DNA from: Strigamia acuminata
Taxonomy: Eukaryota > Arthropoda > Chilopoda > Geophilomorpha > Linotaeniidae
Direction: 5' to 3'
Length of the DNA stretch: 64,000 nucleotides
NCBI GenBank assembly: GCA_949358305.1
Contig: OX442319.1
Span: 13,268,001 to 13,332,000, forward strand
The notes beneath the pieces are model-generated. The model saw nothing but the letters and a program-made list of their open reading frames with translations, had not been told where the DNA came from and searched no databases. This document shows positions 21,071 through 61,270 of the stretch, one piece after another; position 1 is the first letter of the stretch, and each line of letters opens with the position of its first letter. The position numbers and the translations under genes were made by a program.

Positions 21071-21169
21071 TACTAAAAATTTGCGACGAAATTCAGTGAA
21101 AAAACCGAAGCACAAATTACACAAATCACGTAAATTCGTCGCACGGATGCACAAATAGCCCCCAAAAGT

Positions 21170-22760
21170 TGTGACGGTTACACTGTCATACACTTTGTTA
21201 GTATAGGACGATTACTTCACCAATAGATGGCGCTGATACGTTTTAGCGGTAATTTCAAATTTCGACAATTTTTGAATGAATATAAAATATAAATTACTAT
21301 TTATATTTTATTCCACTGCGACTTTATACACTTTTAAATACTTTTGGATGTTTTAATACTAGTTGATTTATTTGTCACATAATTCTATTGAATTATGTGC
21401 AAACTTTACACCTGGTGAAGTCACCCTTCATCACCCACTGTGAGTTGGACTCCTTTTGGATTATAGTCAAAGGGACTTAATCCAAAATGTGTCCTGCGTA
21501 TCCAGTTCCTGTTTTGGACCTAGTAGAAGACTATGTCCTGAGTATCCACTTCCTATGACCTAGGATTGGATGGATTTGACTGCCCAGTGATCCCATTGGA
21601 TCACTGAACAGCTATTCTCCTCACCGAGTATATATCCCCCTGCAAAACGGATATAGCTCGCTCTTGTTCTGTTTTTGTTTGATACTGATATTACTTGAGC
21701 ACATATTATACTTCTCTGCGTTCCGACAATCCGTTGTAGAAATACCTTGTATTTAGTGTAAGTATCTAGAGTGGGTAGAAGACTCACAGACACACTGCCC
21801 GCCTCTTCATGCCAACATTCCGTTGTAGAAATGTCGTAACTAGAGTGAGTAATTCACAGACACATTTAAGTGTAGGATCTAGAGTGGGGTACAACCCACA
21901 GACGCACTCCCTCCAGCTTCATGCCAACATTCCGTTGTAGAATGCAGAATCTAGAGTGGAGTAAAATTCACAGACGCATTGGTAATGTAGAATCTAGAGT
22001 GGAGTATTTATACTTCACAGACGCATTATCAGAGTAATCGACGCGGAGTAATTTCCCGGTTACTCTCCCGCCAGCCAGAACCGAGTGGAGTAATTTCCCG
22101 GCAATGGATAACCTTTCCTGCGAGATATTTCGATTCAATTCGTTATTGGTTTGACGGAACATTTAAGTCTAACTTAGATGTTGATTGCACTCGGGGCAAA
22201 AAATAGCTCGGCGCTATTTTAATATATTTTACTTATTTTCACAGTTTAAGTTAAGTTTGTGACTCTAAAATATCATGATTAATTCCATAGAATTAATATG
22301 ACTATTTATTCTCACATTGTTACATCTCACGGTAATTATTGATTACAATAATTATCTGCGATGCGATGTGTGTGACGATACAGAAAAGTCAACCGCACCT
22401 CTCGGATATAACCCACCCAGCCTAACCATTTACACGCCTTTTAGAATCAAACCCCGGACCATTTAGAAGCCAAAGCCATTCATAGATGACATCTTTTACG
22501 TCACAGCAATAAGACCGTTACAAATTCTTATTGCATGACTGAAGCCTTCAAATGATATTATTTCAGGGCTTTTGCCACATAACTGTATAGTTTAACTTAT
22601 CGTCATTTTAGCCACTTGTAGGCATAATAGTTATATAAGTTTCAACCGGAATAAATGTTATATGTTTTGAGAAAACATCAGGTTTGCATATTTTACACTT
22701 TCACACAGATAGTTCACACTTTAGTTTAGCAATTGCTATCTCCAGAAGGTAATCGTCACA
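21170..22760 (+). repeat. Gypsy 5' LTR (1,591 bp)
   Basis: Direct repeat of 33574-35163, with terminal inverted bases TGTGACG/CGTCACA. Internally about five short diverged direct repeats (21730-22030) carry CTAGAGTGG...CACAGACGCA, an internal subrepeat array possibly in the promoter/R region. Confidence 0.96.
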
Positions 22761-23617: not shown

Positions 23618-25675
23618 TTGAGTATTATGGCCCGTAGACCTGTAAGAGTTCGTGGAACACGAGGAAATCGTGGAGCACGACGACGTGGTGGTATGTGTGA
23701 AACACCAAGAGGAATTGTGGAGTCTGATCTAGAAAGCCAGGGGGAAGAAAATGTTCCTAGAGACGTTTCCAACCCAGGTAGTTCTCGAACGGATCCACTA
23801 TCAGTCCCACATGATTTAGAGGTTTACTGTCGCCATTACCAATTGGAAGTGACGCAGTTTTCCTCTCTGTGCGAAGCTCAACAATACACGGCGAATAATC
23901 ATCACGAGAGAAATCGTGTAATTACTCCCGATGTAGTTGTAACCAACGAACGAAGTGTTTCTGTAGATCGAACTGGCCCTCGTTCACCGGCCACATATCG
24001 CTACCAGCAATTACTTGGATGGCGAATGAATGTTGCTCGTGACGACAATGGGCAGTTAAATTCTTCACTATCTGTTCAACCTTCGATTCAGTTACCAGCT
24101 AGTTCTTGGCGATCGAATTCGGCCGAAAGGATGGGAAATTCCGGACAAGGAAATATTTCTGCGCCAATTTCCCGAAATTTGCCAAGTGCGACGGCAGTAA
24201 ATAATAATTTACCCTCTCCCACTGGAAATTTGAACGATTCTTTCAGAATTCCACAGCCTCGAACTAATCTGTCGATCCAACCAAGGGGGAGAAATGAAAA
24301 ATATCAAAATTTTCAATCTCACGCCCAATCTGATGGAGATTTTAGGAATTATAGGAATTCCCGCTCTCAAGGTGGACGAGCTCCGCCGAGAAATCAACGT
24401 TTTCCCGGAGCTCCAGGTGATCCTCGTGACTCCGACCCTAACTCGAGTAGTGACGAATCTCACGCTGGTAGAGGGGGAAATTATAACAATAATTTCCACC
24501 GACGAAATAATTCGCGTTCTCCACCGCCACCTGATGGACATCAAAATTGTCAAGGAGAGCCAAATCCGCCACCCAGAGACCAAGAAAGTCGGTCTACACC
24601 CAATTCGAACTCTGTTTCTAATTTGTCGGACGAAAATGTAAAACAAATTATTCAGGGTTTAGTTGGTCAAATCCGAAGTCCGAGTAATCCCAGTCAGAAT
24701 TTTGGAAAAGGAATTGAGATTCCTATTTTTGACGGGAAACAGACAGAGGTTGCGCGATTCCTTGAAATTGTCAAAGCTGTCGCACTCGGGAAAGGCATTC
24801 CTTTAGACGACATGGTACACACTGCTGTACCTGGACGACTATTAGGCCATGCACAACGTTGGTTCCATAAGCAACGCCACACTTTTAACAGTTGGCGAAC
24901 TTTCGAAGCCTCTTTTCTCGATTGTTTCGATCTCGTTCCACTTACAAGAGAAAGGCGACTTCTTAATGTAAAACAACGAGCCGACGAGTCACTTTATAGT
25001 TTTCTTCTGCGTTATACGCAAGAACAAGGTGAAGTGCCGCCAGGTGATAAAACTGGACGTGCACAATTATTCGACAATCTAACTCAAGAAAGTTTCACGG
25101 CGTTATGTACACAAGGAATGTATGGTAACTTTACAGTAGATGACATTCTACAATATGTAGGAGCAAATCGCTCTAAGTTTGAAAGTTCTCAACTTGCAGC
25201 AAAATTGGAGTATGATAATCGAGAGAATCATCCTACTCCAAAAGTTCACGAAAAATCTAAGATTTTTCCATCTAAAACTTCACTACGTTTGACACAAACG
25301 CAAGATGAGGTTGAAAATGAAGACGAGTCGGAAAATGACGACTCAACTGACGATGGTTCAATGGAGCGATTATTTGCCGCCCAGTATGAAAAGACTACTG
25401 GAAAATGCTTTTTCTGTCACGAGCCTGGACATTTTAAAAGAGAATGTCCCGCTCTTGCTAAAAAATTAGCAGGGAAAACAGACTCGTTAAATTCAAATAA
25501 AAGATTTAACCACTCTGCTCCCAACCCCGAGTTTAAACGACCCAAACAAAATTGGGTTACGTCAGAAACTTTAGACTCCAAATTTACTGACTTTCAGAAA
25601 AACATGGTTGACCTGTTAATTAAGCATTTACCAGCAGCCACTGAGTCAGTCACTCCCGACGAGACAAAAAACTGA
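23618..25675 (+). CDS. Gypsy Gag (685 aa)
   Basis: A structural protein that assembles the retrotransposon particle and binds its RNA. The N-terminal third is Arg/Gly-rich, then long Asn/Ser/Pro/Arg-rich disordered stretches, then a helical capsid-like region (about 360-540, with QRWFHKQRHTFNSWRTFEASF). An acidic stretch and one CCHC knuckle CFFCHEPGHFKREC (about 597-610) close the domain order. Two start codons, at 23618 and 23627, are close together. The frame ends at TGA 25673-25675 directly behind a frameshift heptamer. It is long for a Ty3/gypsy Gag, mainly because of the disordered N-terminal half. Confidence 0.93.
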   Translation: MSIMARRPVRVRGTRGNRGARRRGGMCETPRGIVESDLESQGEENVPRDVSNPGSSRTDPLSVPHDLEVYCRHYQLEVTQFSSLCEAQQYTANNHHERNRVITPDVVVTNERSVSVDRTGPRSPATYRYQQLLGWRMNVARDDNGQLNSSLSVQPSIQLPASSWRSNSAERMGNSGQGNISAPISRNLPSATAVNNNLPSPTGNLNDSFRIPQPRTNLSIQPRGRNEKYQNFQSHAQSDGDFRNYRNSRSQGGRAPPRNQRFPGAPGDPRDSDPNSSSDESHAGRGGNYNNNFHRRNNSRSPPPPDGHQNCQGEPNPPPRDQESRSTPNSNSVSNLSDENVKQIIQGLVGQIRSPSNPSQNFGKGIEIPIFDGKQTEVARFLEIVKAVALGKGIPLDDMVHTAVPGRLLGHAQRWFHKQRHTFNSWRTFEASFLDCFDLVPLTRERRLLNVKQRADESLYSFLLRYTQEQGEVPPGDKTGRAQLFDNLTQESFTALCTQGMYGNFTVDDILQYVGANRSKFESSQLAAKLEYDNRENHPTPKVHEKSKIFPSKTSLRLTQTQDEVENEDESENDDSTDDGSMERLFAAQYEKTTGKCFFCHEPGHFKRECPALAKKLAGKTDSLNSNKRFNHSAPNPEFKRPKQNWVTSETLDSKFTDFQKNMVDLLIKHLPAATESVTPDETKN

Positions 25676-25706
25676 TTCAGGGGGTTGTTCAAGTTGTCCA
25701 ACCCCC
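25666..25706 (+). promoter_or_regulatory. Programmed -1 ribosomal frameshift signal between gag and pol
   Basis: The heptamer A_AAA_AAC (25666-25672) lies in the correct gag register and abuts the gag stop TGA. After a 7-base spacer comes a stem GGGGGTTG (25680-25687), an 11-base loop and CAACCCCC (25699-25706): eight perfect base pairs. Slipping back one base enters the pol frame, open from 25645. This is the canonical slippery-site, spacer and hairpin arrangement. Confidence 0.88.
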
Positions 25707-28700
25707 GCTTAAAGAGTTGTTTCCTCTCTCGGAATTGTCAAATGATTTATTTTCACGAAAAGATGAATTTAAATTAAGACATAAGCCTAGTCATCTCACA
25801 GTACCTTATGTTGACGATTCGAAGAATAAACCACCATCGTTGGTCATTTCTTACGAAGCAGTACCTGTCTGTCGAAAAGCGAGTAGTTCCACTGGTGGTG
25901 TCGATGAGAATTTAAAAATCATGACAGACCAACTAGAAAATTTGAGTATTTTCAGTGGAAGTTGGAATGCACCCAAGAAACCGCTTGTACCCAAGGTTTT
26001 CAAGTTAAGAAAACTTCTTAAACTTGAAAAATGGAACAAGAAAGAACGAAAAGTATTGCTTGGCAAACTTTGCAATAGCAAATTAATCAATGGTGGCAAA
26101 GATGATCCGCGTATGAATGTCCAAATTGGAGGTTTGGATTACAACGCACTAATGGACTCTGGAGCCACCCAATGTTTTATTGGAGTACAACTCCTTTCAA
26201 ACACAGAAATTCCGGTGGAATTCATACAAGAATGTCCCCGCGGAATGCGTGTCTGCGCAGTCGGAATAGATCACCGACCTATCGGTCAAGTTTGTCTTTG
26301 TGTCAAATGGGCCGATAAAAGGAGAGTTACACCTATGACCTTCATAATTCTACACAAGAATGTATGTGGGTTAATTTTGGGTCACAATTTTATGCGTAGA
26401 ACGGGGATAAACCCTAATCCCCGACGGGCTGTGTTCACCTGTGATGACATGCCCGGATGGACAGCACCATACGAGACCACTGAACTTAACTGTTGTTTAG
26501 CAAGCATTAGGACTTTAGGTCTCCAAGGTGAAGGAACTCCCACTTCACCTGACTGGGCAGAAAAACTCGTCGAAGGCTGCAACAGCTCGGCGGAAGAAAA
26601 ACAGCTACTCGTAAACGTTCTTGTGAAATTAAAAAACGTATTTCGAGACCAATTGGGCTGTACGAAGGTGGCCAAGCACAGCATCAAGTTTAAACCTGGT
26701 GCTACTTGGAAACACCAGCCATATAGAATGTACAACCCGGCCAAGAAGGCCATTATGACGGAATTGGTCGAGGAGTTAGAGGCCGATGGGTTAATCGAAC
26801 CTGCCACTGGCCCTTATATAAGTCACCCCGTCATAGTGGCTAAACCCGGCGGGAAGTATCGATTATGTATCGACTACCGCTGGTTGAATGCGATCACAGA
26901 AGTTGATGCAATTCAAATGCCAAGTATTGACCTATTAATTCACCATACTAATCAGGCCAAGTACTTTACATCCATTGATTTAACTAAAGGTTATCATCAA
27001 ATGGAAATGGAGGAGGAGGATAAGAGCAAAACTGCTTTTTACACCCCAAAAGGCAAATTTCAATTCAAGAGATTGCCATTTGGTCTTTGTAATGCACCTA
27101 GTTCTTTTCAACACCTCATGACTACTGTATTGGGTGACTCTTTATATAAACATGCTCTGGTCTATTTAGACGATATAATTATTTTTTCTGACACATGGGA
27201 AAATCATTTATTACATATTAAAGACGTACTTGAGAAGTTAGATGCCGCAAATCTAACTATCAATAAAGACAAGTCAAAATTTGGTCGAACATCATTACGA
27301 TTTTTAGGCCATTTAATTTCCGAGGGATCTCTTCTTCCAGACCCGGACAAAGTCTCGGCTGTAAGGAATTTTCCCAAACCGACTTGTTCTAAAGACATTC
27401 AGAGATTTGTAGGACTTGCGAATTTTTTCCGAAAATTTATTCCTAACATCGCAAATATTGCTCGTCCATTGACCAATATTATGCATGATCAAGCAAAGTT
27501 TGTGTGGGATGATTCACAAACAACTGCATTCGAAACTATCAAAGATATTTTGTGTGACAAGGACCAAGCCCTTCTTCACATGCCAGATATGAATAAACCT
27601 TTTGTCATTTTGACAGATGCTTCTCATTCAGGCTTGGGTGCAGTACTCTGTCAAGACGTAGAGTTATTCTGTGAAAAGAAACAGAAATTAATAATGGTCC
27701 CGAAAGCAGTCGCGTACGCCAGTCGAGTGTTACACGGGGCCGAAGTAAGGTATTCTACGCCGGAATTAGAGTGTTTGGCTGTTGTATGGGCAATCGAAAG
27801 ATTTCGCCCATATATTGAATACACGACTTTCACTCTCGAGTCCGATGCTAAGGCCCTTAGCTGGTTGATGAGTACGCCGGAACCATCGGGAAGGTTTGGT
27901 CGTTGGGCCGTCAAAATACAATGTGGCGCGTTTAAAATTATTTTTAGACGCGGCGCAATGAACCAAGTAGCGGACGCATTGTCACGCGCTCCACTGTCTG
28001 CACTAGACACTCCGGATTATGATTATATCGAACCAGAGGAAATCACCCATTTCTATCCAACTTGGAATGGAAACAGGTGTGCATCTTTACAAGTGACGGA
28101 AACTGAGCGCAAACATTTTCTTACAAATGTTGGCCTTAGTTTAGATTTTTTCTCAGAATCATATAATCCAGTTAGATTTCATGATTCTGGAGAAAAGGGG
28201 GAGGAAGAAGGATGTACGAGAGAAAATTGCAGACATATAGATGTCCACAATTGTAATCACGAAAATGTACACACTGCGCTAACAGATATCCTAAAAGTAG
28301 TTCCGCCGACGCGAGACGAAATTATCGAAGCGCAGCTTAAAGATCCAGCATGTAGTAAAATCCTTGTTTACCTAAAAGGAGACGAAAAATTAAAAAATCG
28401 TATCACGGATAAACATTGGTTAAATGCGATTCGTGGCTACACTCTCGACGAACCGGAAGAAAATAAAGGTGTTATGCTAATTTATTTTGCTCCGACCGAT
28501 GAGGAGGAGTTAAACGACTCCGGCAACGGGTTTAAGGCGGTAATTCCACGCTCTCTTGTGAGACGTGCATTATTCGCATGCCACGGCCACCCACTTACAG
28601 GACATGCCGGCATGAGCAAAACCCTGGATAGAGCAAAAAAGATGTATTTCTGGCCTAGAATGAGCAAAGACACTCGAAACTACGTTCGCAGTTGCACTCA

Positions 28701-29952
28701 TTGCCAACAATACAAACCTAGTCAACACCAAAAGCATCGGGCAAGCTATACACCCCACAACATGACCAACCCGTGGGAGACTGTAAGCATTGACCTGATG
28801 GGACCAAAACCAGCCGGTCGTTCACAATTAAAATGGATTTTAGTAATCATTGATAATTGTACAAAATGGATTGAAGTCTTCCCACTAGCGACTGCATCAA
28901 GTGAATGCATCGTTAATAAAATGAGCGAAGTTTTCCACCGTTGGGGTTATCCAAAAAAGATAATCTCCGACAACGGCAAACAATTCGTGTCAACAATATT
29001 TAATGATTTTTGTCGAAAAAATCACGTAGATATTGCTCACATTAGTCCATATCACGCTGCCGCTAATATTACAGAGCGGGCTAACAGGACTTTAAAAATG
29101 ATGTTAGCTTTATACTCGGACATTCACTCTCACTGGCCAAAATATTTAAATTCTTTTGCCTTTGCGATGCGCACCGCTAAGTCCGAGGCAACAAATTGTT
29201 CTCCGATGATTCTTAATACGGGAAGAATCGTTCCTTTGCCATTTGACCCGCGTATTACTAAACACGCCATCAAATTCGACAAAGAAAATCCCGAAGCTTA
29301 TGTCTATAGTATTTTAGACGTAATTAGACGTGCACACAGCGAAATGCATCGGAAAATTCAATCGAATTACGAAAAGCATGATCGACTACATAAAGACAAA
29401 TATTATATTTGTCAATTTGCCAAAGGAGATCTCGTGTGGAAAGCCACACATATTTTATCAAATAAAGATAAAGGGATTTCGGCAGGATTCGCTGAGAAAC
29501 GTGATGGACCTTGGGAAATTACGGCTGTTCTCGGCGGAGGTTCCTACACACTACGGAAGCTTTCTGATAACACGAAAGCACAAGCGATCAACATACAGGA
29601 TTTAATGCCTTATATCCCAAGTTATCCGATTGAGGAATGGACATTAGATCAGAAAGTCGGTACCAACGAGTCACACCCGACTCCAGATTGGATGGCAGGT
29701 CAGGTTATTAATTCTCCAGAATTAATAAATGACCCTGTGTCCACGGAAACAGAGGATTTAGTTGAAGGAAAAGAGGAGGAAACTTCTCAGATTTCTTCTA
29801 AAGAGGACGAAACTCCTCAAAATCCATCTAAAAAGAGGAAAAGATTTCCATCTCCCGTTCGACAGTCTAAACGAAGACCCAAGCCGAACACAAAATACGT
29901 GACCGATTTTGTACAACTCATAAATTGTTTAAAACAAGTCAAGTTGGGTTAG
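25676..29952 (+). CDS. Gypsy Pol (protease, RT, RNase H, integrase; ~1,410 aa)
   Basis: The reading frame is -1 relative to gag and has no good AUG at its head, so it is probably made as a Gag-Pol fusion by frameshifting. Counting from 25717, domains run: protease with MDSGATQ (about 147); reverse transcriptase with FKRLPFGLCNAPSSF and YLDDII (about 483); RNase H with ILTDASHSGLG (about 630); integrase zinc finger H-x-H...CTHC (about 955-1000); and the catalytic core at SIDLMG, SDNGKQF and ITERANR (about 1024, 1084, 1118). A Glu/Ser/Lys-rich tail with SKRRPKPN ends the protein. It is intact, with every catalytic residue I can check present. Confidence 0.96.
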
Positions 29953-36381: not shown

Positions 36382-39300
36382 ATGGAAGGACAGCAAGCGA
36401 GCCAACTTTTAGGCTGGATTCGGAAACACAGAATTAGAAGATTGCGTGACATCGTTGCAAATATTCTCACCGAGCAAACGGGGACACCAGAGTTTACCAA
36501 ATCACTCAAGAAAATTTCGGGAAAGAAAAAGATTCTGCGTATACTAGTTTGCACTCTACTCTTGATGAATATAGCAGCTTGTGTTTACCAAAGCGCAGAC
36601 CGAATAATGCATTACATGTCTGAGCCAACAGCAGTTGACGCCAACTTAATTGAAACAACAGACGCCTCAACGATGCCATTTGTTTATTTTTATCCAGACA
36701 CCACGCAAGAATTTAATAATTTCATAAATAAAAAAGATCAATGCCATTATGCGCTCGTTGATCCTTGGTCTACAAAATATAACTACTCAGAAGTAATAAA
36801 ATATGTGAGACCTTCTAACTTCATAACCGATGCCTACTTTGCAGCGGTAAATCATTTTCATTTTTTTGAAAAAATTCTTTTGTCTGGAAATTCAATGTTT
36901 TATCCGGAAATTCAATGTTTTATCCAAAATCTAATTTCATGTAATGTTTGTAGGGGAAATCACGTGCTAACCTTACAGTTAAACCGCACCCTGCCCTTTG
37001 GCCAGTGTCTCAAGTTTCTAGTTGTGAGTCTACAAAAATTGGTTTATTTAAATTTTTAAATCCATTTTCTTTAGCATTTGTTTTTTCATTTGGAAATCAA
37101 TATTACAAGATGATAATCAAATTCAAATTCCCCAAAAAATGCTGGAGTGTTGTTGTAAGTATTTGATTAGCTAAATGAATTGCATTAATTTGTACTAGGG
37201 TAATTTGCATTGAAAAGAAACTTGATTCGTTATTAAGAGGAAGTTTTTAGTCGGCGAGTGCATCCAATTCGCCACTTTACTAATCGCCGATTTTTGTAAC
37301 AATTGTCATTTATTGTTTTAATTTAAAGGTATTAATAGATGCCTTACCGATCGTGGATCATTTACGCAAAACTAATTTAATCAGAATGCCATGTTATCGC
37401 AGAATGAACCGTGCTGGAATAATCACGCAGAAAGTAAGGATTAAGTTCAAAGTTCAAAGTTCAAAAAATAAGATATTACATGTAATGTTTAGTTCTACAA
37501 CTTTCTAAACATTAGCGCTGTTTGTTTATTCTACGTAACAATTGTGCTAAAATTAATTCAATATTTCCTTCTAAACTCGTTTTAGTTTCACTTTATTAAC
37601 CTGAAACGAAAACCGTGTGGCAATGAAGTTGACTTTGAGAACTGCTTGCGAACTTGTTTCAGGAAACTGATAAACAGCAGGTACTGTAAAGTGTCGTTAT
37701 GACAAAATCTGCATATCCAAACACAGATATCCATTGGATGTTCCCGTGTTGTGTTCTGTGGGAAAATAGAGAAGGGAATAAAGTTTTTTTATCAACATGT
37801 GTTGTACTTTACAACTACGGAGTATCTTACTTGGCAAAAAAAATGGAATAATGGTCAAAACTAAGTTCATCACGTACAAACACGAAACGAGTTTTGCATA
37901 CGTTTTAGACTTTTTGAATGCACCTAGTGTATTTTCAGTTTACAATTTTGTTAAAAGCAAACTTCAAAATTATGATTAGCATTACATATTAGACTTCTAA
38001 ACCTCTTCTACACTTTTGTGTTAGAAATACATCTGTCCGTCTGTCCCTAAATAAAACACCAAAATAAAAGAAAATAATGTGGAATTTTCGGGCTCGAGAA
38101 ATGCACAGACGGGCGACAACACGTCGCCAGAGGGCGTTCGGTCGTAACTCGCGCATTTTGATATGTCCGAAAAACGTTTTGTGGTTACAGCCAATAGGAG
38201 TTGACCATTCATGTAATATAACACGTCATTTTCGGTATCAGTCTGTAATAGACGGCTAAAAGTCTAGTAAAACCGGTTTATTAATTAAACCGGAGGTTGG
38301 AAAAAAACGAAACGACCTTAGGACAGGGGTCGGCAACCTGCGGCTCTTTCGATGCCGAGGTGCGGCTCTCCAAGATGCGGCGTCGCTAAAACATGCGTCG
38401 CTAAAATGAAGTACATTCTTCACTTTAGCGACGCCCGTTTTAGGAACGCCGTTTTTTAATCTAATTAAACCTAACCTGACCTGACCTAACCTAAACAAAC
38501 TAAGCTAACCTGACCTAAACTAACCTAACCTAGCTAAATCTAAGCAGCTGAAACACGGCGTCGCTAACGTAGTATACCGTACTGCCCCGTTTAAACGCCC
38601 GGGTTCAATAAAGCGCCGGCCCCGTTTTAGCGCCGGGTAGTCATCGGCGGTTCAATGAATTGGCGCCAGGCCCCGAAAAATTACTATTTTTTTTGTAAAA
38701 AATCGATGATTTTTGCCGAAAAATCGCCATTTTTTGCGAAAAATTGGCGAATTTTCGGTTATGCGCCGGGTTCAATTTAGCACCGGGTTTAAAATTGGCG
38801 TTGAGGAAGTGGCTGAAAAAAAAATTAAACGCCCGGGCGTTTAAACGGTGGCTCTTTAACACTAGAACGGCCAGACCGGTCATTTTGACCGGAAATGCTG
38901 TTTAAAACAGCAGCAGCAATAAACCCAATGGGTTTACGATGCTGCTAATTTGCGACTTTAGCTGATTTATGATGCTTTATATCATAAATCATCGAAAGTT
39001 GCATTTATCTTAAGAAATAATAAAAAAAAAGTGAATTGACCTAGAACGGCCGAAACCGGTCAAAATAACCGGTTGAAATCACCTGAACAATACGTCCACC
39101 AAATTGCACTAAACGTGCACCAAACGTGCACCAAACGTGCACAATACGTGCATACAATGTTTTGGCATCAAACTGATTCAGTAACACGCGAAACATGCGA
39201 AGAAAATACTAAAACAAAAATTGATGGTTTTTATAAAATCTGATAAAATTAAAAACGGAAATTTAATTTGATCAGGTTTTATAATAACCATCAATTTTTG

Positions 39301-42300
39301 TTTTGGTATTTTCTTCGCATATTTCGCGTGTTACTAAATCCATTTGATGTCAAAACGTTGTATGCCCTTATTGTGCACGTATTGTGAAAGTATTTTGCAC
39401 ATTTGGTGCACGTATTGTTCACGGAATTGAAAACCGGTCATTTTGACCGGTTTTGGCCGTTCTAGGTAGGCGGAAATTCCGGCCGTTCTAGTGTTAAAAA
39501 CTGGAAAATTATGTAAATTTTAACTTTTGGCTCTTCTGTCTCAAAAGGTTGCCGACCCCTGCCTTAGGAACATAATACAGGCATTACTACTAGTGGGCAT
39601 GCTGAGTCCATTGGCGTTGCCCGTTTGGCTCTACCTGCTTTCGTTTTGGAGGAATTGACAGACAGACAAACACACGGACAGAGCCGTTTCATTAGACTTT
39701 CTAAACATCAGGTTTAGAAGTCTAAAAAACTGGAATATGCAATTGTTTGAGACAAAAACAATGGAGCAATGAGTTAAAGTGATATACAAAACATTTATTA
39801 GTTGAAATTATAACTTTTAGTTGATGTGGATCATTGTTTTGCATTAATTACAGTTTGAATTTTGTTATAGTTTCAAGAAATAAATGTTTTTTATGTCACT
39901 TTTCCACATTGTTACATTGGTAAATTGAATCAATATTTTTCAGTTCAATTTTAACCAAACCACAGCTAAATAAAGGTAGAATCATATCCTAAAAACCATC
40001 ATTTATTTATTTATTTTGTTATTTTTAAGAAGTTGTAGTAAAAAACGATCATGAACATAGTTTGACCAATATTCCATTTTGGCAAGGAGCTCTACTATAT
40101 AAATACTGAGTTGTGTAGCTTGTTCAAATGTTGGGATAAAAGTTTAGGGGCTTTCATTTGTCCTCAATTTGAGAAAATCACTGTGTTCATGTTGTTTCAG
40201 TTATTTATTTTATGAACTACAAAATCTACAAAAATTCAACCAAACTGAAATTAGAAGGCAGTCCGAGTATATAAATAAACTGCTTACTGAGGAAAACGTC
40301 ATTCAGAAATGCAAATGTCTCGATTTATGCGATGTAACACATCAAAGTACTTCATTCAATAGAGAAGATTATAAAGAAAATGTTCTACAAGTATATGCTG
40401 TAAATAATTATGTTCGAACATTGCAAGAACGTCACTCTTACGATATCATCGATTTGTTGTGTGATATTGGAGGAACCATCGGTCTCTATTTCGGCATGTC
40501 ATGCTTAACACTCGTTGAAATATTTGTCCACTGCTGCAAAACACCTTTCGTCAAGTCCTACAAAACAACTAAAGAAAATTGCCAGTTGAAAGAGAGAATC
40601 CAAACAATACTAGAAAGGAATCAGAAAACACAAAAAAAATCATTCGTTAAAAAGCTAATCAAAAGCACAGTAATATTATTCCTGCTCTCTCTTTCGGTTT
40701 ATTACATGTACGATTTGATGGACGAGTTTCTGAAATATCCAGTCTATCAAACTGTTAGTCTCGAAAGGGACGAAATCATACATTTTCCACAAATTATTGA
40801 ATGTGAAGAAAATAAGAAAATATTAGATGCTAAACTAGATTTGGCAAAAAAAATGAATGCTAATAGCGAAGATTACCAACTCATCGATTTGCTGCATCAA
40901 TCATCAGAATTCGCTAACAAGCCTTTGCAATTATGGAACGCTTCATCTAATTTCAAATACTCTGACGACCGAATCCGGAAAAGCCAGTCGAGTGTAAGCA
41001 AATGAATATTCAAAGAAGGTGAATTTGTTTGCATACTTTAATTTTTTTTACAGGCTTCTTTTAACCAACTTCATCTATCATCTCTGTCAACGATGTTTGG
41101 TCTATGCAGTGTTATGAAGAAAAGTAGCAAAAATTTGACATTATTCTAAGCCATCTTTCAACTTGTTTAGCCACCTAAATTTCTAACACACGTAGCCCTA
41201 AAAATCGACCCAAAATGCACCAGCCCTGTAAAAGACTAACGGATACATTTCATATTTTCATAATAATGGGTTTGACATTGTCACAACATCAAAACGAGTT
41301 ATCGCACATGTTGGCAATGCATGCTGACCACGCTGCTAATGTATCTCGATTGAGGAACCTCTGCACCTTAAAATATTGCTTAATTGTAGCATGAACCAAG
41401 CATGACATGGACACATATCCATTTTTCTACCCGGCTACTTTTTTACTACACTTTTTTCAACCGACTGCGATACAAGTTAGCACGTCACCCAAATCGTCAC
41501 ACCAGCACTGTAAAACAATAGCAGATATGTTTTTTTAATGTATGATCGCCTTTTGTTTCAAGTCACAACACCAAAACATGAGTACTCAAGCAAAAGTTTT
41601 GTACGTGTTGGCAATGTGTGCTTACCATGCTTGATCTTAATTGATCAAACCATACACTTTTCAATCACGGATGCATAATTTCTTTTGTGGTGGTGCCATG
41701 TTTGATCACTAAGGTTACTTTGTTGAGGCAATTATTGATTTAAAGAGAGAAGAATAATATAAGCATATTTCCTGTTTTAATTAAATATTCACTGTTTCAC
41801 TGTAATCCATTGTGTACTTGTGCTTTTCTACGCCATCCGATCTAAATCAGTTTCAATCCAAAGTAACACTTAATTATTCCAAATTTAATAAAAGTTGATA
41901 ACCGCGACAATTCCACTTATTCCCATCATAAACAAAAACACGCCATATAAAATGATTTTTTTTTCTGCTTCTAAACCTTCTAGATGAAGAACAGTTTATT
42001 CGGAATGCAAACCTGATAAACATTTATAAAAAGTGGAACATCAACAAACTTCAGCCAGTGAGGAATTTTTGAACATTTGAATTAAACGAATGATTTCAAC
42101 TTGAGATGCATTGTAGCACTTCATTCTGCCACAAAATCAATATTTTCATCCTAAACACATTTTCTACATATCCGGTGGAAATTATGTTAAAATTCATCTT
42201 TCCCGTCAAACGGTAAGCTTATAATTGAATCAGAACAACTGTGCACAGTGCTTAGAACACATTAGTTCATTCTAGATTGTTCGAGTCGATACCCCGACAA

Positions 42301-43637
42301 GCCCGTGTGGTGACAACGAGCAAGTATCAGAATGTGAACACGACTGTTATGCATCCCGACTGAATATTTCATGCAGGTCAGCATTTACATTAACACATTA
42401 TTCTAGAGCATTTATTTTCCCCCCTAATAAAACTAAACCGAAAATACTGCTCCACCCACCAAAAAAACTTCTATTGCCCTCCGAAAAAGCTGGTTTCCCC
42501 CCCCCCCCCCCCCGGAAAAAAAAACAGAAAAAACTCATTTAACTCTCAAAACAAACCTCAGAAGAACAAAATCAGTGCGAAAAATGTCCCTCTAGGTCAG
42601 AAAAGGAAACGTGGCAGGCCATCTTAGGCTCTTTTTAGGGACATTTTTCGCCTCAAGTGGAACAGAGTATATCTTAGCTTCTCACCAACCGCTATGTTTA
42701 CAAATGTAGGTCTTAAAAAAAATGGGACATGTGCAAGTCCCTTCGTCCCATTTGCTATTTTCTATGGTCACAAGCCATAAACTATTCTTTGACTGTATAT
42801 ACGTCGTAGGTATCAAAGTCGCGCCAGTTTTTAAGGTCAACCTGTCGTATGTACTTGTCGATGTCACTTTCGTGCAGTGTCTTTTTACGAGTAGGAACCA
42901 CGAAGTAACGTTTCGTGTCTTCATCGAGATTATCAAATATTTTTATTTTGGCCCATTTCAATTCCAACTTTCTGCGCTTTCGGGGTGCATTGGTATCATT
43001 GTTGAACATGAATACAAAAAAATCATAATATGCAGGTTTATATACCACAAGATGCATGAACGTCGCAATAAACGTTACCGGCGTAACGTTTATCCGACGT
43101 TTATACGCCATTTGGCGAAACAAAAATTTGGGAGGGGGGATTCCTAGAAAAAGGGGGCAAATAAGTTTTTTTTTTGGGGGGGGGGGGAGAATCCAAGTGT
43201 TTTTGGTGGGCGTTTAATTTACCCCCTTCTTTTTTTAACGATTCTGCTCTATTGTGTTGCAATGCTACAAATGTATTCTAATTGCAACAATTTATAGATT
43301 ACCATTCATGGAGAATAGCAATTCACCGCTCTGCATTACATTAGAAGAAGCAAAAGCAATGCAAAAAAAATACTTGGAAACTCAAATGAAGACAAACCCT
43401 CAGAAAGACTGTCGGTGCAAAGCACGCTGCCTAGAAACCATATTCCATCCAGCAGTGGTAGATGAAAGATTAGGAGGTGACTATTCACGTGCAACATACA
43501 AGATTCCGGAAAATGTTAGAGAAGTGATTGCAGAAAAGAGAACAGTTACGCTCACAAAATTATTTTCTAATATTGGTTCTGTAATTGGTATTCTGACCGG
43601 CCTCTCGACGTTTTCTGTCATAAATATTTTCATTTAA
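36382..43637 (+). CDS. Tandem-fused DEG/ENaC sodium channel, two subunits in one chain (11 exons, ~762 aa)
   Basis: Exons: 36382-36846, 36954-37023, 37075-37154, 37329-37433, 37586-37680, 40201-40993, 41054-41123, 41984-42057, 42117-42212, 42276-42376, 43298-43637. Phases agree at every junction. DEG/ENaC subunits have two membrane spans around a Cys-rich outer domain and normally form trimers. Here spans fall at about 51-70, 359-384, 424-447 and 738-762: two full units. Both second spans keep the GxS filter (GLYFGMS; GILTGLS). Both outer domains keep PCG(N/D)NE...C-x3-C (C251/C260/C264; C627/C636/C640). Unit 2 has the post-span YPVYQTV...FPQIIEC motif. The intron phase series 0-1-0-0-2 is identical in both units. 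Each unit is short for the family, and the usual N-terminal HG is not evident. In exon 2 the motif matching unit 2's FGLC (FGQC) lies one frame off, next to a GGGG run: an indel, assembly error or decay. Confidence 0.83.
38324..39561. mobile_element. hAT-type non-autonomous element with 8-bp target duplication
   Basis: Terminal inverted repeats CAGGGGTCGGCAACCT / AGGTTGCCGACCCCTG, flanked on both sides by CCTTAGGA (38316-38323 and 39562-39569). An 8-bp duplication and CAGGG ends are diagnostic of hAT. There is no transposase frame. The interior has a run of diverged CCTAACCTGACCTAA-like repeats and a separate nested insertion. Confidence 0.93.
38860..39493. mobile_element. piggyBac-type MITE inside the hAT element
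   Basis: TTAA on both sides (38856-38859, 39494-39497) and inverted ends CACTAGAACGGCC / GGCCGTTCTAGTG. TTAA duplication and CACTAG-type ends are typical of piggyBac MITEs. Subterminal copies of CTAGAACGGCC...AACCGGTCA occur, and the centre (about 39184-39340) is a long palindrome that could fold into a hairpin. No coding capacity. Confidence 0.92.
42672..43123 (-). pseudogene. Degenerate MULE-transposase fragment with SWIM zinc finger
   Basis: The minus strand has two overlapping open frames that together look like the C-terminal end of a MULE transposase. The first runs to WRDFDTYDVYTVKE. In the second, after a frame change, comes VTIENSKWDEGTCTCPIFF and then YICKH: the CxC...CxH SWIM signature. 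Short C-rich and G-rich homopolymers and weak inverted similarity (TTTCCCCCCTAATAAAACT / GTTTAATTTACCCCC) flank it at 42415-43230. It sits inside the last intron of the DEG/ENaC gene, antisense to it, so it is a dead insertion. Confidence 0.7.
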
Positions 43638-47758: not shown

Positions 47759-50700
47759 TTAGCATTCTTCAATGAGCCGACTTGGCTTGTTGACCGCTCT
47801 TCCGCTCCTCGTAACCATTGGTCTTGGAGATGTTCGCCTCGTCTCTGGTGATTGTCGAACCGGAACTGGAATCTCGGCCGTCGCTGGTGCCTGTTGATCC
47901 ATTGGTGGTTCCTCGACCTCACTGGACTCATCTGCTTGGCTGTCCCCTGGATCGATGTCGTCCGGCTTGTCCGAATCGTCCTTCAGTGGGATGAGGTGGA
48001 ATCGATTGCGTTGCACCGTTCGCTTGTCGGTGTTAACAATGTATGAGCGCGGTCGTCCCGCCTTCTTCTCGATGACGCCCGATCGCCTCAAATCGATGAT
48101 CCAAACCCTCTCGCCTGGTTGTAGATCTGGAAGATCCCTCGCTCGATGTCGCTTATCGAAATTCCTCTTTTGGTCTGCTATTCTCTTCTCCTCCTTCCCC
48201 CGAAGAAGTTTCGCATCTGGAGTCTTAGGCATCAATTGGGTTGCGGCGATCGGAACTTCGGTCCTGATTTTCCGCCCCATCAGCAGCTCCGCGGGTGAGA
48301 ATCCGTTTGCCAGTGGAGTCGCACGATAGCTTTGAAGTGCTTTAAAGCCGTCGCTAGATTTCTTCAAAATCCGCTTGATGACTTTGACCCCGGCTTCTGC
48401 GAACCCGTTACTCTGAGGATATTTCGGACTCGATGTAGTGTGGATAAATTTCCAGTCTGTCGCGAATATGGAAAACTCCGATTTTAATAGAGTTCCAAAT
48501 TGCGTTCCATTATCGCTGACCACCTCTTGTGGTGTACCATGTCGCGAAAATATAGATTTTAGGAATAGAATCACTTCGCTTTCCTTGAGCGATGTCAGCG
48601 TCTTGACTTCTGGATACCGCGAGTAGTAATCTTCAACGAGCAAATACCACTGACGATCCAAGTAGAAAAGATCCATGCCAACTTTTTGCCATGGCCGTTT
48701 CGGGAATTCCGCTGGCATGAGTGGTTCGTGAGGATTTGTGGACTCTTTGATGCATTCCGTACACGTGGAAATGCGTTTTTCAACGTCCCTAGAGATCCCT
48801 GGCCACCAAACCGCAGACCTTGCCCTGGCTCGACATTTTGTGATTCCTAAGTGTCCCGTGTGGATCTTGTCCAATATGAATTCACGTAATTCCGCTGGGA
48901 TCACAATCCTTGACCCTTTCATGAGTAGGTCTTCTTCTATGGCTATCTCATCTCGGTATTGCCAAAAATCCCCTAACCCTTGTGGTAATTGATCTTTGAC
49001 TGGCCATCCATGTTGACTGAACTGCCGAAGCTTGATGCAAATCGGATCCCTGTTCTGGACCTCTATGATTTCACCTAAGCGTTGGTCAGTAGCTTGAAGA
49101 TGCTTGGTAATCAGCTGCACATATGCAGTCACACAACTCTCGAGTCGTTGCTCAATGTCGCCATCTTCTTCAGTGTCCGGCAATGGACGCCTTGACAAAA
49201 CATCAGCCGCGCCTAACTCCTTGCCTGGAATGTGCTTGACCGTGTAGCAGTATCGCTGAAGTCGAAGTCGCATCCGTTGCAATTTTGGAGTGATCTCGTC
49301 GAGTTCCTTCGTCATCAAGATGGGTACCAACGGCTTGTGGTCAGTTTCCAGACAGACGGGAATTCCAATGATGAAGTTCTTGAACCTCTCACATGCCCAT
49401 ACGAGAGCATATCCCTCTTTCTCTATCTGTGCCCAATTCTTCTGACATTTCGTTAAGGTTTTACTCGCGTAGGCAATCGGCCTGAATTTGCCGTCTTTTT
49501 GCTTTTGTTTAAGCACTGCACCTACTCCGTATGAAGACGCATCCGCTGTGATCACTGTCTCTCTCGTAGGATCGAACCACGCTAATGTTGGGGCCTTTGA
49601 TAATTCCTCTTTAATGGCGTCAAACGCTGCTTCTTGCTGCGTCCCCCATCGGAATTCATTCTTGCCGCCCAATAGTTCATTCAACGGGTGTGCTTTTGTC
49701 GCCAAATTCGGGATGAATCTACCCAGGTAATTGACTGAACCCAGTAGACTTCGTAATTCCGACACATTTTCGGGTTTGCCCATTTGTCTAATGGCAACAA
49801 TCCGGTCGTCATCGACATGAACTCCGGCTTGATCAATGATGTGTCCCAGGAATTTTATCTTGGTTTTCCCGAACTCGCATTTCGCTACGTTCAACGTTAT
49901 TCCCGCTTCTAGTAAGCGTTGGAGAACCGCACGTAAACGTCTATCGTGTTCCTCAATGGTGTCGCCATAAACCAATATGTCATCAACGTTGACTTGCTTG
50001 CCTTCCAATCCTTCAAGGATTTCGCTCATTCTCTTCTGAAAGAATTCAGGTGCTGCATTTATGCCGAAAGGAAGCCTCTTGAACATGTATCGGCCAAATG
50101 GAGTGATGAATGTTGTCAACAGCCGTGATTCGGCATCCAACTGACACTGCCAAAAGCCATGATTGGCGTCGAGCTTTGAAAAATACTTTGCTTTCCCAAG
50201 CCGACCCAACACGTTCTCAGTAACGGGCATCGGATGTGTTTCTCGCATCACGTAGCGATTAAGCCTCACATAATCCACGCACATGCGAATCGATCCGTCG
50301 GGCTTCGGTGCCAAAACCAGCCCAGAACACCAATCTGTTGGTTCTTCTACCCGTTCTATTACTCCCAATAATACCATCTTGTCGAGGTTTGCTTTTATCT
50401 CGTTTAGTAGAGGAATCGGAACTCTTCGAGGTGTCATTAACGCATATGGACTTGCATCAGGTTTCAGTCGTATTTTGTACGGTATTTCGACGCGCCCCAA
50501 ACCGCTGAATAGCTTCGGGTAAGCCGTCTTCGGATCGAATGACATCTTTGGTGTCTTCTCCGTTTTCACCGCATCAACTCCGCAACGTCTGATGATGTCC
50601 AACTCTTCGCAGGTATCGCCATCTAGTAATGGCTGCATCAAACCTCGAACGACGTAGATCGCTGTTAATTTCGACCGTCCTCGGTACTCGATTTTCTCCC

Positions 50701-51778
50701 ATAACATTCCTAACGTTTCCATTTTTCCTTTGGTCGCATTGTGCAAGTTCAGCTCGGGTTTCCGTAATTTTCTATCGGAAAAATAGTCCATGTAGACTTC
50801 CTCGGGAATACATGTCGTTTCGGCGCCGGAATCTGCCTTGAATGTGATTCTTGCGTTCCTGATCTCGACCGACACATGCCATCTTCCCTGTCGACTGGCA
50901 ACTCCATTGACTGATTCAATGTAAGCATCCGTCGCTTCATCGACCCCTTGAACCGCTGCACTTCGACAAACCCTCGCATAATGACCTTTGCGATTGCATT
51001 TGTGACATGTCAGCCTCGTTGCTGGGCAATCCTTCATCGGATGGAATCCGCCGCCACATCTGCCGCAATTACTCGAGTTTTTCGATGCATTCTTCGGCTG
51101 TGTCTTGGGACCGCCGTCCGGTTTGCTCGATTTCCCGCTGTCATCTGGCCGTTCTGTCTTCCTTTTCCAGAAGTTGGATCGTTGCACCTTCTTGGAGTCA
51201 ACTCGATCCACGGACTTATTGGTCGATGACGCTTCCAGCAATGTTTTCGACTGCGAATTGACCTGTTCAGACTGTTTCGTCATCTCGATTGCCTTCGCCA
51301 ATGTCAAGTTGCTTTGAAGCTGAAGCTTCTTTGCCATCGCCTTGTCCCGGATGCCATTCACGATCTTATCGCGGATAAACTCGTCGTACAATGCATCAAA
51401 TTTGCAGTGTTTGGCCGCTGTGTGCAATGCCGTGATATATTCGTCCATTGCCTCTCCGTCCTTTTGCTGGCGGTTGTAGAACATGGCTCGCTCATAAATC
51501 ACATTTGTTGTCGTAACAAATTTTGCCTCAAAAGCTGCCTTCACTTTTGCATAATCGTGCTTGTCTGGATCCGCCAATTTAAATGATGTGTAAATGTCAT
51601 TTGCTGTGTCCCCCATGTGGTAAAGGAGTGAAGCCACTTGCTTTTTGCCTGGCTGTGTGTCCAAATCCACCATGGAGCGAAACAACTCAAATCTGGCAAT
51701 CCATCTTGGCCAATCTGCAGCATTCTTGAAGTCAAATTCATCTGGTGGTTTGCAAATGCTGTGCTCCACTTTTGCCAT
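47759..51778 (-). CDS. mag-like gypsy gag-pol polyprotein (1,339 aa, intact)
   Basis: One frame from ATG 51778. The N-terminus (KPPDEFDFKNAADWPRWIARF) is typical of the Gag of the mag lineage. Two zinc knuckles follow (CGRCGGGFHPMKDC and CHKCNRKGHYARVC, about 235-275), then protease with KADSGAETT (about 315), reverse transcriptase with FGINAAPEFFQ and VNVDDILVYG (about 596; V-N-V-D-D rather than the usual Y-x-D-D, both Asp kept), RNase H with ITADASSYG (about 742), and integrase with H-x-H...CTEC (about 975-1010) and catalytic MDLFY, SDNGTQF and NGFAEAG (about 1033, 1088, 1124). Gag and Pol are fused without a frameshift, as in mag elements. No break seen. Confidence 0.96.
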   Translation of the reverse strand: MAKVEHSICKPPDEFDFKNAADWPRWIARFELFRSMVDLDTQPGKKQVASLLYHMGDTANDIYTSFKLADPDKHDYAKVKAAFEAKFVTTTNVIYERAMFYNRQQKDGEAMDEYITALHTAAKHCKFDALYDEFIRDKIVNGIRDKAMAKKLQLQSNLTLAKAIEMTKQSEQVNSQSKTLLEASSTNKSVDRVDSKKVQRSNFWKRKTERPDDSGKSSKPDGGPKTQPKNASKNSSNCGRCGGGFHPMKDCPATRLTCHKCNRKGHYARVCRSAAVQGVDEATDAYIESVNGVASRQGRWHVSVEIRNARITFKADSGAETTCIPEEVYMDYFSDRKLRKPELNLHNATKGKMETLGMLWEKIEYRGRSKLTAIYVVRGLMQPLLDGDTCEELDIIRRCGVDAVKTEKTPKMSFDPKTAYPKLFSGLGRVEIPYKIRLKPDASPYALMTPRRVPIPLLNEIKANLDKMVLLGVIERVEEPTDWCSGLVLAPKPDGSIRMCVDYVRLNRYVMRETHPMPVTENVLGRLGKAKYFSKLDANHGFWQCQLDAESRLLTTFITPFGRYMFKRLPFGINAAPEFFQKRMSEILEGLEGKQVNVDDILVYGDTIEEHDRRLRAVLQRLLEAGITLNVAKCEFGKTKIKFLGHIIDQAGVHVDDDRIVAIRQMGKPENVSELRSLLGSVNYLGRFIPNLATKAHPLNELLGGKNEFRWGTQQEAAFDAIKEELSKAPTLAWFDPTRETVITADASSYGVGAVLKQKQKDGKFRPIAYASKTLTKCQKNWAQIEKEGYALVWACERFKNFIIGIPVCLETDHKPLVPILMTKELDEITPKLQRMRLRLQRYCYTVKHIPGKELGAADVLSRRPLPDTEEDGDIEQRLESCVTAYVQLITKHLQATDQRLGEIIEVQNRDPICIKLRQFSQHGWPVKDQLPQGLGDFWQYRDEIAIEEDLLMKGSRIVIPAELREFILDKIHTGHLGITKCRARARSAVWWPGISRDVEKRISTCTECIKESTNPHEPLMPAEFPKRPWQKVGMDLFYLDRQWYLLVEDYYSRYPEVKTLTSLKESEVILFLKSIFSRHGTPQEVVSDNGTQFGTLLKSEFSIFATDWKFIHTTSSPKYPQSNGFAEAGVKVIKRILKKSSDGFKALQSYRATPLANGFSPAELLMGRKIRTEVPIAATQLMPKTPDAKLLRGKEEKRIADQKRNFDKRHRARDLPDLQPGERVWIIDLRRSGVIEKKAGRPRSYIVNTDKRTVQRNRFHLIPLKDDSDKPDDIDPGDSQADESSEVEEPPMDQQAPATAEIPVPVRQSPETRRTSPRPMVTRSGRAVNKPSRLIEEC

Positions 51779-51789
51779 TATTTGTGGAA

Positions 51790-51930
51790 TGTTTTTCTCT
51801 TCCTTCTCCTCCTCTTGGTCCTCTAGTATGGGCTCAATGATGAGTAAGGCTAAAATTCCTTTTTCACTTCCTTCTCCTCCTCTTGGTTGTTTAGTATGGG
51901 CTTAATGATGAGTAAGGACTCAATTCCTTG
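51790..51930. repeat. ~65-bp direct duplication in the mag-like leader
   Basis: CTTCCTTCTCCTCCTCTTGG...AGTATGGGCT.AATGATGAGTAAGG occurs twice in tandem between the 5' LTR and the start codon. Confidence 0.85.
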
Positions 51931-53588: not shown

Positions 53589-54305
53589 TTAAATTTCTAT
53601 TCCTGCTGAAAATGCTTTTTCTCGTATATGGGTTAAAAGATGTCTTCTTAAATTCCCACTTGTAATACAGGAATAGTCACACAAATGGCACTTGAATGGT
53701 TTTTCTCCTGTGTGGGTTAATAAATGTGTTTTTAAGGTCCCAATTTGGGTGCAAGAATAATCACACAAATGACACTTCCACGGTTTTTCTCCAGTATGGG
53801 TTAATAGATGTTTCTTTAAACATTCACGACGACTCGAACAATAAGCACAGAAATGGCACTTGAATGGTTTTTCTCCTGAATGGGTTAATAAATGTCTTTT
53901 TAAACTTCCACTTCGACTGCAGGAATAATCACACAAATGGCACTTGAATGGTTTTTTTCCTGTGTGGGTTAATAAATGTTTTCTTAAATCTGAACTTTGA
54001 ATACAGGAATAATTACACAAATGGCACTTGAACGGTTTTTCTCCAGTGTGGGTTAATAAATGTTTTCTTAAATCCCCACTATGAGCCGAAGAATAATCAC
54101 ACAAATGGCACTTGAATGGTTTTTCTCCAGTGTGAATTCGCATGTGGACAGTCAAGTAACTTTTAAGTCGAAATGAAAGTGAACACATTTGACATTTGAA
54201 CGGCTTTTCACCAGTGTGTTTAAGCATGTGCTGTTGCAATAAGTACACGTATGAACACGAATACTCACACAGATTGCATTCGTAATCCTCATGTGTTCTC
54301 TTCAT
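53589..54305 (-). CDS. C2H2 zinc-finger protein with eight fingers (238 aa)
   Basis: A single-exon coding part from the ATG at 54303-54305, preceded on the minus strand by an acceptor-like TTTCATTTCAG and a short leader, so the 5' UTR is probably spliced. Eight tandem C-x2-C-x12-H-x3-H fingers joined by near-perfect TGEKPFKC linkers fill almost the whole protein, as in DNA-binding transcription factors. Most fingers share CHLC(D/N)YS and LLTH. The recognition helices vary (for example SGDLRKH, SSDLRKH, SGSLKRH, IGTLKTH, SGNLRRH). The target is unknown. No other domain is present. An inverted, damaged paralogue lies at 55727-56344 and the pair is divergent. Confidence 0.92.
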   Translation of the reverse strand: MKRTHEDYECNLCEYSCSYVYLLQQHMLKHTGEKPFKCQMCSLSFRLKSYLTVHMRIHTGEKPFKCHLCDYSSAHSGDLRKHLLTHTGEKPFKCHLCNYSCIQSSDLRKHLLTHTGKKPFKCHLCDYSCSRSGSLKRHLLTHSGEKPFKCHFCAYCSSRRECLKKHLLTHTGEKPWKCHLCDYSCTQIGTLKTHLLTHTGEKPFKCHLCDYSCITSGNLRRHLLTHIREKAFSAGIEI

Positions 54306-55094
54306 TTTTTTACTTCAACGACAGTGACAGTGAAATGCGCGCAGTCTGAAATGAAAAAAATAATAATAATTAAGTTAGAAAACGTTTAATTTAATTGGAC
54401 ACACTTTAAATAATATTGGTATGTATACTGTGAACAAAAACAAATAAAACAAAAAAATTACATTTTTGGAAAAAGGCTTTTATGCTGTATCCCTGCGAAA
54501 TTTGAATCCAGACTAAAAATTTGCCAAATGACAAATCGTTTTTTAGCAAATAAAAAAAAATGTAGCTCAGATCAAAAAGTTATCAGCACCATTTGCAAGA
54601 GCGGCAAATTCTGCACAGGAAACATAATTTTTAATTTTTTAAACCGTTCATTTTTCATATTTTTTGTTTTTTTGAATTCAAATTTCTTACTAAATTGGCC
54701 ATGGTGAAAAAACAAAAAAGAAACAAACAGGCTTGTGCAGAATGCAATTTCCAATCGAATGAGTCTGGTTTCAGAATTTATAAATTCGTTTTTAGTACCG
54801 AAACCTTCAAAATTCGTATTGGGCGAACATTTTGGCATCCATTAAAGGACAAGGGTTCGCAGGACACACAAACATTCCAATTGTTTGTAATTTGTATTTC
54901 CAGTCCACAGCGCTTAAAAATGAGTCTTTTTTTTATTTTATTTTATATAATGTGTGGAATGACCTGTTCTAGGGTGCTACACACAAATCGGAAGCTGAAA
55001 CACACCAACCAGAAGTTGAACCCCACAAACATTCAAGTCAAGTTAAATAAAAGCCTTTAAAAACGAGGTCGGGGCATCGCCGCTAATGGTTCGA
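54306..55094. other. Spacer between the divergent zinc-finger copies
   Basis: The part next to each gene (54330-54430; 55600-55720) is conserved as an inverted repeat. In between, 54910-54985 resembles part of the foldback element arm (AATGAGTCTTTTTTTTATTT and ATGTGTGGAATGACCTGTTC), an old transposon fragment. An open frame at 54695-55060 overlaps that fragment and is not convincing. Confidence 0.5.
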
Positions 55095-60600: not shown

Positions 60601-61270
60601 CACCAAAATGGCTGACCGCAATGACAATACGCCTAATTAGTCTTGATTTATTGCTGATGAATTTACGACCCCCTCGAGGCCCCAGACCAAACCCACCTCT
60701 AAACCTAATCCCATCCAATGACATCAAGTCGCCAATCACAAAAAAAAAAACTCTCCACCGTGTCCACTCATTGTTTCAAACAACACGATAAACAAGCACG
60801 ACCGGATAACAAGACCTCTAAATCCAAACCCCACCGTCGCCATGACAACCGCACATTCCTCGCATTCCACGCCCGTCCCGCGGCCCCAGCAGGCGCCCGC
60901 ACCACATCCCCCGACGACGAGTCGCGACACGTTTCCCCCCGCCCACCGCCCACCCACCCACTGTCCACCACACTGTCCACCCGGCGCGCGTGATTCGATG
61001 AATCGACGGAAGCCGCGCGTCAAACTCGACCCTTCAATTATGCACTTAAACTAATACATCCATCAAGCGCAAGAAGGAAAAAAATCGCTCTCCGCTCGCC
61101 CTCCCTTTCATCGCGCCTTAAATCGCACGGTGTCGTGCCATTGGCTCCGGCCGAGTGCGAGCGCGGCTTCCCGCTGCGCCAACGTGGCCCTGGCCGAGGT
61201 GAAACCATTGCGCGCGAGCAGGGGGAAGCGACGCAACTTCACACCTCGTGCATTCTGACGAGGTGCCGCC
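60601..61270. other. GC-rich upstream region of the four-jointed-like gene
   Basis: The base composition changes from AT-rich to C/G-rich here, as expected for a promoter and 5' UTR. Open frames on both strands reflect the high GC content. An in-frame TGA five codons before 61271 supports that ATG. Confidence 0.45.

Follow-up and report, generated by a model that had tools for sequence, protein, structure and literature searches.

A natural tandem of two DEG/ENaC channel subunits predicted from a large gene family of the centipede Strigamia acuminata

Two described relatives of the gene presented here are channels of the DEG/ENaC family from the centipede Scolopendra. PDPNaC1, a proton-dissociation channel of antennal sensory neurons (421 residues; PDB 9jf7), was described as a homotrimer of single subunits, and BRTNaC1, the broad-range thermal receptor 1 from centipede antennae (431 residues, one unit per chain; PDB 8ymr-8ymx), was likewise described as a trimer of single subunits. 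The gene in question is located in a stretch of 64,000 nucleotides from Strigamia acuminata (GenBank assembly GCA_949358305.1, contig OX442319.1, positions 13,268,001 to 13,332,000), in the following called the window. Unlike PDPNaC1 and BRTNaC1, it encodes two units, termed A and B, in a single chain of 762 residues.

Subunits joined by evolution in one chain are found as natural internal repeats in K2P, TPC and Nav/Cav channels. Those repeats split a fourfold channel evenly, whereas two units do not divide a trimer. In PMC4529235 and PMC10329638, ASIC subunits were connected head to tail via a cytoplasmic linker with currents retained, and a tandem ASIC1a dimer was functional, with its pH0.5 measured. 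These engineered concatemers were man-made from identical or chosen subunits with linkers of 8-19 residues. The centipede pairs, in contrast, are natural, consist of two long-diverged units with linkers of 37-47 residues and are present in many copies.

A gene model of 11 exons was obtained at window positions 36382-43637 on the forward strand. The model was stop-free, and all ten introns were of the GT-AG type. A hydropathy scan of the product gave four hydrophobic spans, corresponding to two per unit. The Pfam family ASC (PF00858) matched the whole protein in four stretches (E 2.8e-26, 93 bits) and was also found in each half alone, with 55.4 bits for A (E 7.1e-15) and 48.7 bits for B (E 7.9e-13), compared to a curated cut-off of 23.6 bits. 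The sixth exon (40201-40993), referred to as the fused exon, is contained in a single stop-free frame of 285 codons at 40148-41005. Its translation contains CDIGG...GLYFGMSCLTLVE, the A pore helix with the sequence GMS, and continues through a linker of 44 residues into a hydrophobic helix and the motif FPQIIEC of B. The longest open run in 2000 first-order Markov resamples of the fused exon was 176 codons, and a chance origin of the 285-codon frame is therefore unlikely.

An earlier note on this DNA had proposed that two DEG/ENaC subunits are read without interruption as one polypeptide, from the A pore helix through a linker of about 40 residues into the first helix of B. This was upheld by the frame described above, by the PF00858 match in each half and, as set out below, by the stop-free copies of the fused exon and the constraint on the linker. 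The two parallel exon series of identical phase were also present in the model (exon end phases 0-1-0-0-2-0-1-0-0-2), as was the pair of 70-nucleotide exons at 36954-37023 and 41054-41123. The outer-domain exon PCG(N/D)NE...CxxxC, proposed to be common to both units, was found in part as described: the motif occurs in A (PCGNE..CLRTC) and in B (PCGDNE..CEHDC), with a gap of one residue between the two. The overall layout was retained, but several exon ends in the first half had to be corrected, to 36846 for the end of exon 1 and to 37075-37154, 37329-37433 and 37586-37680 for exons 3-5. At the level of the genome sequence, a natural DEG/ENaC tandem is confirmed in the window gene.

Judged from the assembly, the window gene belongs to a very large family in this genome. 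The fused exon (264 residues) was searched against its own genome and the best 145 of 1453 first-look candidates were scored; with a distant family member as query, the best 150 of 1462 were scored. At least 145 and at least 150 matches were obtained, 24 of the latter being new, and the junction was covered by every listed match (145/145 and 150/150). The resulting total of at least 169 is a lower bound on matches. Among these the distinct genes are somewhat fewer, since some adjoining copies on contig C1 score identically and others may be allelic, whereas candidates beyond the best scored would raise the number. Copies were located on contigs C1, C6, C8 and C9 and on four small contigs (C30, C68, C76 and C95), and the six copies on the small contigs may include allelic ones. 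In-frame stops were observed in 7 of the 169 listed copies (six from the first search and one among the 24 added by the second), leaving 162 stop-free. Identity to the window exon was 43-87% in 34 aligned copies, and an AG acceptor and an in-phase GT donor flanked the fused exon in 30 of 30 copies checked.

Searches with the first exon and with the last exon gave at least 150 places each. The genomic order of the matches to the three exons was then compared, on the same strand and within 15 kb. Among the listed matches, 91 of the 169 fused exons were immediately preceded by a first exon and immediately followed by a last exon, against a mean of 7.05 and a maximum of 13 in 200 shuffles of the exon labels. 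In 118 cases the next match after a first exon was a fused exon, and in four cases it was a last exon. Two consecutive fused exons were seen three times among the listed matches, which may reflect either longer concatemers or a first exon outside these matches. Complete, stop-free two-unit models of 11 exons were obtained at 12 of the 15 loci attempted (the window and loci L039-L041, L043-L047, L050, L070 and L071).

The linker was compared in 38 copies. Its length was 37-47 residues with a median of 44, and its net charge ranged from +6 to +15 with a median of +10. Basic stretches are known to lie on the cytoplasmic side of membranes (positive-inside rule), and the strongly positive charge thus places the linker in the cytoplasm. 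The ratio of replacement to silent change per site (pN/pS) in the fused exon was calculated for 91 pairs from 14 close copies. The ratio was lowest in the A pore helix (0.08), followed by the linker (0.28), the B first helix (0.29) and the B ectodomain part (0.53). The value of 0.28 indicates that the linker is maintained as protein by purifying selection. Three close complete genes gave a ratio of 0.64 over their whole length. In these genes the outer-domain exons 4 and 5 of A and 9 and 10 of B had more replacement than silent change per site; a Fisher test of this (p 3e-11), on exons picked post hoc and pairs that are non-independent, gives no more than a hint. The fast outer-domain exons (window 36954-37433 and 42117-42376) hint at ligand-driven change; diversifying or relaxed selection may be the cause.

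BRTNaC1 was the best PDB match of the window B unit along its whole length (E 5.5e-12, residues 431-761), and the two have a pair of membrane helices and a Cys-rich ectodomain in common. The A unit of the paralogue L045 matched PDPNaC1, a channel of the same family, best (5.5e-9), followed by BRTNaC1 (8.3e-9). In the 12 modelled genes the ectodomain contained 8-12 Cys residues in A and 10-12 in B. A His-Gly motif is common, though not universal, at the N-terminus of DEG/ENaC subunits; it was absent from the first 60 residues of A, the unit examined, in 12 of 12 modelled genes. By analogy with BRTNaC1 and PDPNaC1, and in view of the size of the family, the paired proteins are fairly likely to form cation channels that serve as sensory receptors.

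The origin of the pair was addressed with trees of the pore-helix region (33 rows, 9 of them single-unit) and of the first-helix region (32 rows, 8 single-unit). The 12 A units formed one clade and the 12 B units another, with support of 99/98 and 100/99 in the pore-region tree and of 100/99 and 100/98 in the first-helix tree; both trees had long stems, and the position of some single-unit rows was unsure. Since the A units and the B units are each monophyletic, the sampled 12 pairs descend from a single A-B fusion. A sister relationship of A and B was neither rejected nor shown when tested against the single-unit genes (approximately unbiased test, p-AU 0.539 and 0.192). Single-unit genes were represented by at least 93 exon-level PF00858 matches (best 93 of 2095 scored), and no overlap with the listed fused-, first- or last-exon places was found when these were compared by eye. 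In three single-unit loci, L067, L068 and L069, with splice sites read by eye from the genomic sequence, exon 1 ended in phase 0, and phase 2 was read at the end of the exon that precedes the pore-helix exon. These two phases may be ancestral, because A and B have them as well. A tandem duplication of one whole gene, which the earlier note took the identical phases to imply, was consequently not demonstrated, given the shared phases and the two p-AU values. At L069 a long tandem repeat was observed at about 1001-2260, in an intron region of the single-unit gene, with units like KIHFPDRKFIFRTENSFSG when translated.

The best explanation, which is considered likely as a whole, is that a single gene gives rise to a covalent DEG/ENaC pair, derived from one A-B fusion that was then amplified as a unit, and that the product is a cation channel used as a sensory receptor, with A and B as neighbours in a trimer. 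In such a course of events an A gene and a B gene would have been linked by one fusion, and the fused pair would have been multiplied to at least 169 copies in this geophilomorph centipede. The predicted chain would begin with A, which has two helices and an ectodomain; a linker of about 44 residues, basic and cytoplasmic, would lead to B, which is built on the same plan and ends directly after its pore helix. Translation of a two-unit chain that remains joined is very likely.

Several observations weigh against this explanation. Exon order and phases are imposed by the model fitting, and exons 4, 7 and 8 scored low in distant copies, where their ends are uncertain. No sound model was obtained at 3 of the 15 loci, namely L042 (poor exon 10), L048 (deletion in the fused exon) and L049 (several poor exons). 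The four first exons placed directly before a last exon had no fused-exon match between them; one case is L048, where the deletion removed A's pore helix and some of the linker, another is L049, with a diverged or damaged fused exon, and the other two are on C1 near 32.94 Mb and 52.25 Mb. The pN/pS of the A ectodomain part of the fused exon was 0.97 among the 14 close copies, which fits relaxed and diversifying selection equally. Met was present in 34 of the 38 linkers, at no position common to all, and internal starts are possible there. The best listed PDB match of the window A unit was ASIC5 (1e-5) and not a centipede channel. AlphaFold prediction of the fused exon (35 rows) gave helices at 69-112, 126-143 and 148-177 at low confidence (mean predicted local distance difference test score 56.7). 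As a separate observation, at L048 (C1:44366900-44371900) the B first helix is still in frame over a stretch.

The placement of A and B of one chain side by side in the trimer, with the third place taken by a single-unit protein or by half of a second pair, is regarded as an even chance. Neighbouring positions are favoured because the linker is short, and 44 residues would be able to join neighbours, since 8-19 residues suffice in the engineered ASIC concatemers. Somewhat more tentative is the proposal that a large receptor repertoire of obligate covalent pairs has arisen in which the working channel does not consist of three free subunits. It could be formed by a pair and a shared single-unit co-receptor, by two pairs as a pseudo-tetramer, or by three pairs as twin A/B trimers.

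The strongest competing explanation, although unlikely, is an assembly of pairs with each other, either two concatemers as a pseudo-tetramer or three as twin trimers with three A and three B units. A tetramer or a hexamer would be compatible with an even number of units. In the DEG/ENaC pore helix a G-x-S selectivity filter is followed by an acidic residue. Such a filter was present in both units in 12 of 12 modelled genes: A contained GMS in 11 and GMC, with Cys for Ser, in one (L047), and B contained GLS in all 12. The acidic residue of A, a Glu, was found in 12 of 12 genes. In B, however, an acidic residue was retained in 9 of 12 only, being replaced by Asn in the window gene, L070 and L071, and the B chain ended 3-6 residues past this position. 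According to PMC4529235, channels were formed in oocytes by tandem ASIC1a dimers, trimers and tetramers alike, and a tetramer was advocated by one group. The solved relatives PDPNaC1 and BRTNaC1 were, on the other hand, described as trimers.

Release of two free proteins in equal amounts, either from a polyprotein cut in the linker or with B made from an internal Met or promoter, is a good deal less probable. The linker is basic and probably flexible, and the Met found in most linkers stands directly before the B first helix in close copies. Four of the 38 linkers are nevertheless Met-free, that of the window gene included, and no NPG motif of the 2A type was found in the 38 fused exons. The confined length of the linker and its pN/pS of 0.28 also argue against free proteins.

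It is very improbable that the family is decaying or spreading selfishly, with fused copies multiplied without function. Damaged copies do occur, as seen from the seven with stops and the deletion in L048, retrotransposon frames flank the channel gene in the window, and pN/pS is near 1 in one region. Against this, 162 of 169 fused-exon copies are stop-free, and pN/pS was 0.08 and 0.29 in the two membrane helices, 0.28 in the linker and 0.64 over the whole gene. Single read-throughs joining two genes are a common annotation error, but the many independent copies of the same join on the contigs named above, with 43-87% identity to the window exon in the 34 aligned, rule out in practice that two genes were bridged by faulty assembly or by a chance open frame.

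Features of the paired channel gene in the window
Feature	Window position	Strand	Basis and remarks
Exon 1: start codon; cytoplasmic N-terminus of A, its first membrane helix (about residues 50-72) and the first part of its ectodomain	36382..36846	+	Model; homologous exon at at least 150 genomic places
Exon 2 (70 nt): A ectodomain	36954..37023	+	Model; 70 nt also in close paralogues L070 and L071
Exon 3 (80 nt): A ectodomain	37075..37154	+	Model; 80 nt also in L070 and L071
Exon 4 (105 nt): A ectodomain; fast-evolving across three close genes	37329..37433	+	Model
Exon 5 (95 nt): A ectodomain, PCGNE..CLRTC	37586..37680	+	Model
Exon 6 (fused exon): last part of A ectodomain and A pore helix, then the linker, B first membrane helix and first part of B ectodomain	40201..40993	+	Model; at least 169 genomic copies
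Pore helix of A, with the filter GMS at 40493-40501 and a conserved Glu	40457..40528	+	pN/pS 0.08; 12 modelled genes
Linker, 44 residues, basic, Met-free in window gene	40529..40660	+	38 copies compared; pN/pS 0.28
B first membrane helix	40661..40735	+	Hydropathy; pN/pS 0.29
B post-helix motif FPQIIEC	40784..40804	+	Alignment of 35 copies, with F, P and C unchanged in all
Exon 7 (70 nt): B ectodomain; poorly conserved	41054..41123	+	Model; fitted length 55 nt (L070) or 73 nt (L071)
Exon 8 (74 nt): B ectodomain	41984..42057	+	Model; 74 nt also in L070 and L071
Exon 9 (96 nt): B ectodomain	42117..42212	+	Model
Exon 10 (101 nt): B ectodomain, PCGDNE..CEHDC	42276..42376	+	Model
Exon 11: last part of B ectodomain and B pore helix (GLS, about 43554-43634), immediately followed by the stop codon	43298..43637	+	Model; homologous exon at at least 150 genomic places

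Several other elements were observed in the window. Two long terminal repeat (LTR) retrotransposons are represented on either side of the channel gene by pol frames at 25645-29949 (+) and 47762-51901 (-), in which RVT_1, RNase H and integrase domains were recognized. A further frame of 1674 codons at 16190-21211 (-) encodes a Copia-type polyprotein and carries a methyl-CpG-binding domain (PF01429, E 6.7e-9) at 17789-17956, between the integrase and the reverse transcriptase, which to our knowledge is unusual in a Copia polyprotein. An open frame at 53592-54314 (-) encodes a C2H2 zinc-finger array, and a frame of 349 codons at 61259-62305 (+), without a match in Pfam or NCBIfam, is reminiscent of the four-jointed kinase family.

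Elsewhere in the assembly, contig C157 (15068 bp) was recognized as mitochondrial, with COX1 identified by Pfam and the other genes named by eye from translations. The order of its 12 protein genes was cox1 cox2 cox3 nad6 nad2 -nad5 -nad4 -nad4L atp6 cob nad3 -nad1, and no atp8 was identified on this contig in the translations read by eye. The same gene order and strands were reported for the mitochondrion of Strigamia maritima and called unique among the animals compared (PMC4368715). The adjacent position of cox2 and cox3 had at first suggested a chaetognath, but chaetognaths lack atp6, and an atp6-like frame is present on C157.

The spider mite Tetranychus urticae is said to have an expanded ENaC family with a proposed chemosensory role, and the centipede family resembles it as a large DEG/ENaC expansion in an arthropod. 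The terms pickpocket, ENaC, degenerin and sodium channel are absent from the main text of PMC4244043, which describes the Strigamia genome, and among the matches listed in the open-licence PMC literature no earlier description of a natural DEG/ENaC concatemer was found. DEG/ENaC channels have been described as trimers of single subunits, while in Strigamia acuminata two long-diverged subunits would have been joined once and were apparently kept in at least 169 copies. This natural construct makes subunit order, neighbourhood and stoichiometry testable, with many linkers and many combinations of A and B at hand for comparison. The paired family may represent a major sensory receptor repertoire of soil centipedes.

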